Below the pieces are notes generated by a model that saw nothing but the letters and a program-made list of their open reading frames with translations, ran no database searches and was not told the origin of the DNA. Both the position numbers and the translations under genes were made by a program. Positions 43,012 to 46,238 of a stretch of 59,804 bases of DNA are shown in pieces (positions within the stretch are counted from its first letter, which is position 1; each line of letters begins with the position of its first letter). This DNA is from Alphaproteobacteria bacterium (GTDB lineage: Bacteria > Pseudomonadota > Alphaproteobacteria > UBA2966): positions 1 to 59,804 of the forward strand of contig JAGWAU010000018.1 of the NCBI GenBank assembly GCA_021296255.1, read 5' to 3'.

Positions 43012-43791
43012 ATGGACCTAGGTATTTCGGGAAAGAAGGCCATTGTTTGCGCTTCGAGCCGGGGACTCGGCAGGGCTTGCGCGTTTTCCCTGGCCCGCGA
43101 GGGCGTGGACGTGACCATAACCGGACGTACGTCGGACGCTCTCGAGGCTACGGCTGAAGAAATCCGCAAGGCGACGGGTGTCACCGTTACCGCCGTGGTC
43201 GGCGACATTTCTACTGTAGAGGGGCGTGATGGTGCGCTCACGGCTTGCCCGGACCCCGATATTCTCGTCAACAATGCCGGGGGGCCGCCGCCCGGGAACT
43301 TCCGCGATTTCAGGCGCGAAGATTGGATCAAGGCGCTGGATGCGAACATGCTGACCGCGATCGAGCTGATCAAGGCGACGGTCGACGGCATGATCGAGCG
43401 GCGGTGGGGCCGCATCGTCAACATCACGTCCGGTTCCGTGAAAGCGCCTATCGACATTCTGGTGCTGTCGAATGGCGCGAGAACGGGCCTCACGGGTGCG
43501 GCCGGCACTATTGCTCGTGAAGTCGCCAAACACAATGTGACGATCAATAATCTGCTTCCCGGAGAGATCTTGACCGATCGTCTTCGCACCACGACCGAGG
43601 CCGTCGCCAAGCGAGAGGGGGTGACTCCGGAGGAGGCCGCGGACCGTCGAATTGCGCGAATTCCGGTTGGCCGATTCGGCAAGCCTGAGGAATTCGGAGA
43701 AGCCTGCGCGTTCCTGTGCAGCGATCAAGCAGGCTACATCACCGCCCAGAGCATTCTGCTGGATGGCGGGCTGAACCCCGCGCTGTTCTGA
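43012..43791 (+). CDS. SDR family oxidoreductase lacking the Tyr-Lys catalytic pair
   Basis: A 259-residue SDR: MDLGISGKKAIVCASSRGLG with a CASSRGLG cofactor loop (usually TGxxxGxG), NNAGGPPPG, NITSGSVKAP and a C-terminal ITAQSILLDGGLNPALF. In the active-site window the expected YSASK-type segment reads VLSNGARTG: aligned on Ser of NITS, Tyr becomes Ser and Lys becomes Arg. A subgroup of FabG-like SDRs with LSNGAR at this place exists, so this may be a family-wide trait. It may bind NAD(P) with altered chemistry. It ends 8 bases before the convergent GcvT-GcvH fusion. Confidence 0.85.
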   Translation: MDLGISGKKAIVCASSRGLGRACAFSLAREGVDVTITGRTSDALEATAEEIRKATGVTVTAVVGDISTVEGRDGALTACPDPDILVNNAGGPPPGNFRDFRREDWIKALDANMLTAIELIKATVDGMIERRWGRIVNITSGSVKAPIDILVLSNGARTGLTGAAGTIAREVAKHNVTINNLLPGEILTDRLRTTTEAVAKREGVTPEEAADRRIARIPVGRFGKPEEFGEACAFLCSDQAGYITAQSILLDGGLNPALF

Positions 43792-43799
43792 CGGCAATA

Positions 43800-45329
43800 T
43801 CAGGTCAGTCTGAGATCCTGGGACCAGGCTTCATATCGCTCAAGCTTGCGTGTGATCTCGGTATAGGCAGCCATATGAACAAGCTCTGAAATCTCCCCGG
43901 TGTCGCTGGGTTCAATCTGAATCAGACCATCGCGTGCATAAGGATAACGATTGGCATCGCTCGGTCGATCGACCACGGACGTATTCACCGCCACGACTGT
44001 CCCCGACAACGGAGCAATTAAGTCGAAAGGCTTGCGATAGGCGTCGAGCCAGCCGAACGGCGATCCTCGGACAATGCGGTTACCCGGCGTCGGCAATTCC
44101 ACGAACAGCATTTCGCCGAGGTCCCGCTGTGCGAAGTCAGTCAGTCCGATCGTGGCTCGCCCACCGGGCTCCGTCCCCACCCATAGATGATCTTCGCTGT
44201 AGCGCAGTCCGTAAGGAGACAGGGTGTTCACCCTGGCGCCGTCCCGAACCCGCCGTTCACGGAAGGGGTAGGCGATGATGCCGGCGTCGTAGTGCGCGTC
44301 GCGCACTCCGAGGGCATGGGGGCTCGCAACGAAGCCCAGCCCCAGGCTCGAGGCGCCGCCCAGCAGATCAGGAGACAACGGACCGCTCGTAACTTGTCCG
44401 ATCCGTTCGCCGTCCTTGAAGATGGGGTATCCGTGGCGGATCGTGCGACAGCCGTCCGCTTCAAGTCCCACCAATTTCCGTGGTGTTCCCTGTTCGGCGA
44501 TGGCGGCCAGCGCATCGCGGCCAATGAAATCCTTGTAAAGCTTCACCACCCATCCAAGGCCGACCTCGTACGGGTAGGTCCGGTCATCCATATCATTGCC
44601 GTTGAGCAGGTAGCCGGCTTCGGTGCGCGCACTTTCGCGAGCGGCCACTCCGTGCGGCACGATCCCCAACGGACGCCCGGCGCGTATCAGTGCCTCCCAC
44701 ACGCAAGGGGCCAAGTCTCGGGAAACGCAGATCTCGTACCCTCTTTCGCCGGTATACCCGATGCGGCTGACAATGCAGCGAACCTCCAATTCGCGGGTCA
44801 TGACGGAGGCCTCCGCAAGCCGATAGTAAGCCATCTCCGAAAGGTCGGCCTCGGTGATCTTTTGCAGAACCTCACTTGAGTACGGACCCTGGAGGGCGAT
44901 GAGGGCCAGATCCGTCGACAGATTCCGCACGTGCACGTCGAGGCCTTCGGCGTGCTTCAGGACCCAACGATAATCTTCGTCGGTCTTGGTGACGTTGACG
45001 ACCCAGATGAACCGGTCTTCCGCCAGTCGAAGGCAAACCAGATCGTCGATGACGTGACCGTTTTCGTTACACATGACGGTATAAAGGGCTTGGTTGACGT
45101 CCAAGCGGGCGGCATCGTTGGTGATCAACCTGTCCACAAGCGTCAACGCGTCCCTGCCGGTAAATTCGAGCTCTCCCATGTGGGAAACGTCACAGAGGCT
45201 GACCCGTTCCCGTATGGCCCGATGTTCCTCGGTATGGCCGACATATTCGACAGGGCGGGCGAAGCCTTTGAGATTGACGATGCGTGCCGCCGATGCCATG
45301 TGGATATCGAACAACGGTGTTTTTTTCAT
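43800..45329 (-). CDS. Fusion of aminomethyltransferase (GcvT) and GcvH-like lipoyl domain
   Basis: A 509-residue protein from ATG 45329. Residues 1 to about 365 are a complete GcvT/folate-aminomethyltransferase: KKTPLFDIHMASAARIV, HMGELEFTG, VIDDLVCLRL (Asp95/Asp96, catalytic region), GYTGERGYEI (about 191-200) and GLGWVVKLYKDFIG. Residues about 368-500 are a GcvH-like biotinyl/lipoyl fold: SEDHLWV, LTDFAQRDLGEMLFVELP and IAPLSGTVVAVN. In true GcvH the lipoylated Lys is four residues before the Asp preceding the (I/L)xAP strand; here that place is Arg432, with Lys433 next to it. No gcvP or separate gcvH is in the window. Function may be glycine cleavage-like or a different one-carbon transfer. 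Confidence 0.85.
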   Translation of the reverse strand: MKKTPLFDIHMASAARIVNLKGFARPVEYVGHTEEHRAIRERVSLCDVSHMGELEFTGRDALTLVDRLITNDAARLDVNQALYTVMCNENGHVIDDLVCLRLAEDRFIWVVNVTKTDEDYRWVLKHAEGLDVHVRNLSTDLALIALQGPYSSEVLQKITEADLSEMAYYRLAEASVMTRELEVRCIVSRIGYTGERGYEICVSRDLAPCVWEALIRAGRPLGIVPHGVAARESARTEAGYLLNGNDMDDRTYPYEVGLGWVVKLYKDFIGRDALAAIAEQGTPRKLVGLEADGCRTIRHGYPIFKDGERIGQVTSGPLSPDLLGGASSLGLGFVASPHALGVRDAHYDAGIIAYPFRERRVRDGARVNTLSPYGLRYSEDHLWVGTEPGGRATIGLTDFAQRDLGEMLFVELPTPGNRIVRGSPFGWLDAYRKPFDLIAPLSGTVVAVNTSVVDRPSDANRYPYARDGLIQIEPSDTGEISELVHMAAYTEITRKLERYEAWSQDLRLT

Positions 45330-45596: not shown

Positions 45597-46010
45597 CTAG
45601 GCCGAAGCCGGCAAGCCGCCCAAATCGTTGGAGTCGACGATCTTCCAGAACGTGTCCTTGTGGCTGATCTTTCCACCCTTGAAGTCGTACAGGTCGCAGC
45701 CTCGGTAATTGAATACTTCTCCGTTCGCGCTTTGTCCGGTGACGGTCCATACGGCGACCGCCCGGTTCTCCGTCACGTACTTGTAGTCGTGCTCCCATTT
45801 CATATCGGGCACCACTTCGAATCTCTTGGCCAGGAATTCGCGTATGTTGTCGCGTCCCTGGATGCGATAACCCCAAGGATCGGGCCCGCGCGCCGTCGCG
45901 AATATTCCGTCCTCCGCGAAATAGGATGCAATACGATCCGGATCGCGACTGTCGAACGCCGCGTTGATCTCTTCGATCAGTTCGATCGTCACTTTTCCGT
46001 CACCCGACAT
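45597..46010 (-). CDS. NTF2-like/SnoaL-like domain protein
   Basis: A 137-residue single-domain protein from ATG 46010 (MSGDGKVTIELIEEI), chosen for the GGGAGAG site before it; ATG 46028 would add six residues. The cone-shaped NTF2/SnoaL fold is seen in INAAFDSRDPDRIASYFAEDGIF, GRDNIREFLAKRFE and the C-terminal CDLYDFKGGKISHKDTFWKI. The family covers isomerases, small hydrolases and binding proteins; the Trp/Asp content gives no specific assignment. Nothing in the neighbourhood fixes the role. A 267-base gap separates it from the GcvT-GcvH fusion. Confidence 0.8.
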   Translation of the reverse strand: MSGDGKVTIELIEEINAAFDSRDPDRIASYFAEDGIFATARGPDPWGYRIQGRDNIREFLAKRFEVVPDMKWEHDYKYVTENRAVAVWTVTGQSANGEVFNYRGCDLYDFKGGKISHKDTFWKIVDSNDLGGLPASA

Positions 46011-46238
46011 CGCACTCTCCCATTTCATCCTGAACGAGACGGCGCGGGAGATCTGGCCCGCGCCCGTGGTGGATGTTCGGGTGGTATACTATTTGCTCCT
46101 CGGTTCGTTCAACACGGTGCGACGCGGCGCCTGCGCGCTTGTCGGGTCAAGCGGGTGCAAAGCGCGCACGATCACTGCTGCGTGCCGTGGTCGGATCGGT
46201 GCAGGTTAGAAACCGGAGTTCACGGGAAGACCTGCGAA

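Follow-up and report, generated by a model that had tools for sequence, protein, structure and literature searches.

An H protein owes its function to the lipoate swinging arm. In the H protein of E. coli, Glu12, Glu14, Ser67, Asp68 and Tyr70 hold and release the aminomethyl arm (PMC7733448). The GcvH fold is also used outside glycine cleavage, in the GcvH-like lipoate-binding proteins (LbpA) of sulfur oxidation, where the lipoyl-lysine is strictly conserved (PMC6067878). GcvT-type domains, for their part, can load one-carbon units on folate without a lipoyl carrier, as they do in dimethylglycine dehydrogenase/oxidase, sarcosine oxidase and TMAO demethylase, where the domain shares its chain with the enzyme's own oxidase or demethylase domain. 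Here we describe a protein in which a GcvT and a GcvH-like domain form one chain. Unlike LbpA it carries an arginine, Arg432, in place of the defining lipoyl-lysine and has a T domain on the same chain, and unlike the folate-domain demethylases it has an H-like domain but lacks a flavin domain. We found no description of a GcvT-GcvH fusion in the open literature searched, and nothing usable for the fusion in the literature on homarine and trigonelline pathways.

The gene lies in a 59,804-nt stretch of DNA (the window), as a 509-codon frame with no internal stop (Table 1). It scores 277 bits with Pfam GCV_T (residues 7-261), 40.8 bits with GCV_T_C (284-340) and 85.5 bits with GCV_H (375-494). 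In an AlphaFold2 model of mean pLDDT 78, with linker residues 341-378 below 50, residues 1-360 match T proteins (Z 47 to 1wos) and residues 377-498 match solved H proteins (Z 16-18). The fusion thus resembles GcvT aminomethyltransferases (TIGR00528, PF01571; T. maritima 1woo/1wos) in fold, in folate-binding and catalytic residues and in passing the curated cut-off, and it resembles GcvH (TIGR00527, PF01597; E. coli 3a7l, pea 1htp) in fold, in the hairpin and in His13, Trp15 and Asp68. The initial annotation had already read the gene as a GcvT-GcvH fusion, which the open frame, the Pfam domains and the same fusion in two other species bear out.

Table 1. Features of the fusion gene and its surroundings in the window.
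Feature	Position	Strand	Basis or remark
GcvT-GcvH fusion gene, 509 aa	43800..45329	-	ORF; Pfam/NCBIfam; uninterrupted in two further species
T-protein folate-binding domain, residues 7-261	44547..45311	-	Pfam; residues checked in T. maritima numbering
T-protein C-terminal barrel, residues 284-340	44310..44480	-	Pfam
GcvH-like domain, residues 375-494	43848..44207	-	Pfam; model matches H proteins, Z 16-18
Hairpin GWLDAYRKPFDLIAPLSG, residues 426-443	44001..44054	-	Best-conserved run of 18 residues in the H domain
Arg432 codon, lipoyl-Lys position	44034..44036	-	Sequence and structure alignments
Convergent SDR gene	43012..43791	+	Adjoins the fusion in each of the three species; 86% and 79% identity
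Fossil, last 72 residues of the FAD monooxygenase intact in L009	45351..45566	-	56% identity, E 4e-20
SnoaL-like gene	45597..46028	-	89% identical to the gene at the start of L009
Fossil, amidohydrolase start, 30 residues	46251..46340	+	60% identity

The genus has two further sequenced species, and both have the same uninterrupted fusion, at 85% (locus L009) and 71% (locus L010) identity. As it recurs in three genomes, in one of them on a 3.5-Mb contig, we reject a frameshift, an assembly chimaera or misjoined genes as its origin. When a collection of 84,980 species was scanned with exact peptide patterns, only the two sister species proved to have the fusion, and no further uninterrupted one appeared in 783 sampled genomes, 385 from the class and 398 from the phylum. 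Their nearest matches were neighbouring gcvT and gcvH genes split by a stop, and the H motifs that were read have the normal lysine; the best-scoring T-H pairs in one family of the phylum (f188) were dismissed as separate genes, again with the normal lysine. Members of the family and order outside the genus are without the fusion, and plasmid records, where annotated, have gcvT and gcvH as separate genes only. In each of the class and phylum genomes, strict E-value limits applied and only the best candidates were scored; for this reason, and because the collection was scanned with exact peptide patterns, distant fusions could be missed. So far, then, the fusion is confined to one small genus of uncultured Alphaproteobacteria. 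The initial annotation had proposed a search for homologues with the same fusion and for their neighbouring genes, and what emerged is two sister species, with the SDR gene as a neighbour common to all three.

The H motif of the fusion (FGWLDAYRKPFDLIAP) pairs without gaps with the canonical motif (GVVESVKAASDIYAP), which puts Arg432 under the lipoyl-lysine; all 63 of the 63 distinct canonical GcvH sequences compared have lysine there. In the model the hairpin strands comprise residues 424-430 and 435-438, with the turn at 431-434, and structural alignment of residues 377-496 with residues 9-128 of the E. coli H protein, with no net gap, equates residue 432 with Lys64, the E. coli lipoyl-lysine. 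Arg432 is invariant in the fusions of all three species. The first reading of the sequence had placed Arg432 at the lipoyl position with Lys433 one residue off, had named an alignment with Lys433 exactly at the site as what would speak against it, and had argued that without lipoylation this could not be an ordinary H protein; the ungapped sequence and structural alignments now put Arg432 at the site, the protein is indeed no ordinary lipoylated H protein, and the sister species strengthen the case. Lys433, which both the window protein and L010 have next to the site, and which is what could recommend lipoylation there or at another lysine, is Glu in L009, and the whole 141-aa H domain of L009 contains zero lysines, so that lipoylation is excluded there. 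We reject Lys433 as a lipoylation site on these grounds, and give almost no credence to an H domain lipoylated after all, which the L009 sequence contradicts. The H domain of L009 is therefore unlipoylated, as its sequence itself shows, and we infer the same for the other two species.

The pocket has changed as well. All three fusions have Phe for Ser67, Ile for Tyr70 and Pro for Ala66 (E. coli numbering), and Leu, Leu and Val at the position of Glu14, so that an acidic residue at 12 and Asp68 are the only pocket residues remaining; in canonical GcvH, Glu14 and Ser67 are each present in 60/63 sequences. Apart from these differences and its union with GcvT, the fusion departs from GcvH in scoring below the gcvH equivalog cut-off (88.8 bits vs 115.85 for TIGR00527), and it is also below that of not_gcvH (34.8 bits vs 144.05 for TIGR03077). 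The loss in the H domain thus extends to arm and pocket alike. Internal shuttling of aminomethyl groups, an idea raised at the outset, is not supported because, with both the swinging-arm lysine and the aminomethyl-holding pocket gone, the domain has neither arm nor dock. Hence the Arg432 observation is stronger than first noted, while the interpretation attached to it is partly supported. Loss of the lipoyl-lysine was seen in no other GcvH among those examined. GcvH relatives from Njordarchaeota, Verrucomicrobia and Lentisphaerae (L018, L019 and L020) keep this lysine and have, as the fusion does, Leu for Glu14 (YSEDHLW); they are possibly H proteins of another system.

Pairwise dN/dS values (NG86) lie at 0.09-0.13 in the T domain and, not far above, at 0.14-0.17 in the H domain, the more distant pairs being near synonymous saturation and one pair giving no estimate; both domains are under purifying selection. 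Of all 18-residue windows in the H domain, the hairpin at residues 426-443, with 14 of 18 positions invariant across the three species, is the most conserved, and its excess conservation is only suggestive (binomial P 0.02 against the domain mean, for a window chosen after the fact). Trp427, Tyr431, Arg432 and Phe435 are conserved in it, the first three being invariant in the three fusions, as might be expected if the domain carried a one-carbon unit or another group on Arg432 or another non-lipoyl side chain. We regard this as very improbable, given that the pocket residues are lost and that we know of no chemistry for an arginine arm. The retention of the H fold and overall surface without carrier function, in a domain under selection, could also point to a regulatory or decoy role of the pseudo-H domain. 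It would then tune glycine cleavage by covering the H-docking surface of a T protein, be it its own or a different one, or by binding GcvP or GcvH partners. This too seems improbable to us, though less so, as the fusion is unlinked to the gcvH-gcvP genes in all three species.

The folate-binding and catalytic residues are retained in the T domain. The fusion scores 285.8 bits, above the gcvT equivalog cut-off of 235.85 (TIGR00528), and retains, in T. maritima (Tm) numbering, H50, Y83, D95, D96, N112, Y188, E195, R227, R231 and E233, of which the folate-binding or catalytic Asp96, Asn112, Tyr188, Glu195 and Arg227 are kept in all three species. Two positions with little or no variation in other GcvT proteins have changed in the fusion (Tm Asp228 is Glu and Ala113 is Val), and its activity may therefore differ; it is further set apart from GcvT by its H-like domain and by not lying beside gcvH or gcvP. 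In the tree the T domain branches on a long stem, separate from the GcvT clade of the Alphaproteobacteria (clade support 100/98), which leaves unsupported the notion that it is a relic of the family's own gcvT-gcvH operon; the H-domain tree is too weak to place the fusion's H domain. Against the cut-offs for TMAO demethylase, SoxA and DMSP demethylase the fusion reaches 233 of 1100, 178 of 1164 and 143 of 410 bits, all below.

That no gcvP is nearby, as had been pointed out from the window, is correct: the genome's only gcvP is on another contig (C52), where it adjoins the host's canonical gcvH (VVESVKAASEVYAP), and a lipoyl synthase gene, lipA, is present too. In the fusion's genus gcvH adjoins a long-frame gcvP and gcvT is not seen there (G000:C52), whereas in sister genera (G003-G006) gcvT, gcvH and a shorter gcvP frame are adjacent; judging by gene order, the glycine cleavage operon appears to have been rebuilt in the fusion's genus. 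The main rival to the reading that we prefer is accordingly that the fusion is the T protein of this glycine cleavage system and works in trans with the lipoylated GcvH and the GcvP on C52, its fused H domain being left over from gcvT-gcvH read-through and now stabilising or regulating. The equivalog score, the intact active-site residues and the missing stand-alone gcvT beside gcvH-gcvP all make this a serious possibility, if still a doubtful one. A second host protein above the gcvT cut-off, a GcvT fused to a serine hydroxymethyltransferase (SHMT)-like domain on contig C47, keeps the canonical catalytic residues, and the fusion is therefore not needed as T protein of the cleavage system. The position of the T domain outside the alphaproteobacterial clade on its long stem counts against the in-trans role as well, as does the hairpin: in a relic, this would not be expected to surpass the rest of the H domain in conservation.

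The GcvT-SHMT protein (G000:C47:49557-50573 and beyond; L108, L125) is about 850 aa long and occurs in all three species (also G001 and G002). It would pair the formation of methylene-THF with its use for serine, and could be the T protein of the host's cleavage system. A stand-alone GcvT-like protein (G000:C64:25652-26737; L092), conserved in the genus and adjoining a nitroreductase-like gene, has Val for Tm Arg227, Ala for Asn112 and Val for Tyr188, and is likely a non-classical T protein. About 12 further GcvT-like places lie on other host contigs, many in long demethylase-like frames.

The surroundings of the fusion hint at amine catabolism. In L009 the order is SnoaL-like gene, proV, putative permease, proX, alpha/beta hydrolase, FAD monooxygenase and fusion, with about 19 bp between the monooxygenase and the start of the fusion, and the monooxygenase forms an apparent operon with the betaine-type transporter. 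In the window, fossils of the monooxygenase and of an amidohydrolase flank an intact SnoaL-like gene, the remains of a decayed catabolic block; a proX scrap (19 aa, E 0.2) is too weak to use. As these fossils and the SnoaL-like gene are all that the window keeps, its species has lost the block and kept the fusion. The initial annotation did not include this decayed island, nor lipA and the canonical gcvH-gcvP pair in other parts of the genome. Decay all around could suggest that the fusion, too, is a decaying gene or an assembly artefact without function, but its frame is open in three genomes at 71-85% identity, dN/dS is well below 1 and one homologue sits on a 3.5-Mb contig; conservation contradicts this reading, which we consider scarcely credible. 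Amidohydrolases of the type seen as a fossil accompany the same monooxygenase family elsewhere, and in one genome a member of that family is near glutamine-synthetase-like and glutamate-synthase-like genes, presumably of the kind used in methylamine use. The FAD monooxygenase family is represented in L146 (G300:C37) by two copies in tandem, both of which share about 75% identity with the L147 homologue. In a more distant family the monooxygenase occurs without GcvT beside it, and L010 shows neither the monooxygenase block nor its fossils. With the neighbours lost in the window, absent in L010 and without GcvT by the monooxygenase elsewhere, the link of the fusion to a monooxygenase pathway is weak.

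We favor the reading that the fusion is an active, THF-dependent one-carbon transferase of GcvT type with a non-lipoylated pseudo-H domain as cap or dock, and that the donor of its one-carbon unit is not its own H domain; we give this reading a probability of roughly 0.4. The T domain would perform GcvT-type, tetrahydrofolate-dependent transfer, and the attached H-like domain, unlipoylated, would carry nothing. It would remain close to the T-domain surface used for docking by a normal H protein, and its conserved hairpin (WLDxYRxPFD) would lie at the mouth of the T active site, or close to it, as cap or gate. The T domain may then take a methylene or aminomethyl unit from such a donor and turn it into methylene-THF; amine catabolism would be the most likely source of the donor, as a small N-methylated compound or the imine of one. 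We infer both the position of the cap near the active site and the identity of the donor. Of the two functions first proposed for the fusion, a different one-carbon transfer is possible, and internal shuttling is the one that finds no support. The fuller picture, of a lipoate-independent transferase with the H fold as a built-in gate that holds an arm-less hairpin at the T active site while the unit comes from a free small-molecule amine, is one that we advance only tentatively and think rather unlikely as a whole.

In conclusion, the fusion probably has some other one-carbon task, or else the carrier fold serves it solely as a cap. It is a warning that a GCV_H annotation is not proof of lipoylation, and it would provide a natural single-chain T-H pair in which to study T-H contact. 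With the fold kept and both arm and pocket gone, a conserved fusion of this kind would show that the H fold can work for a T protein as something other than a carrier.
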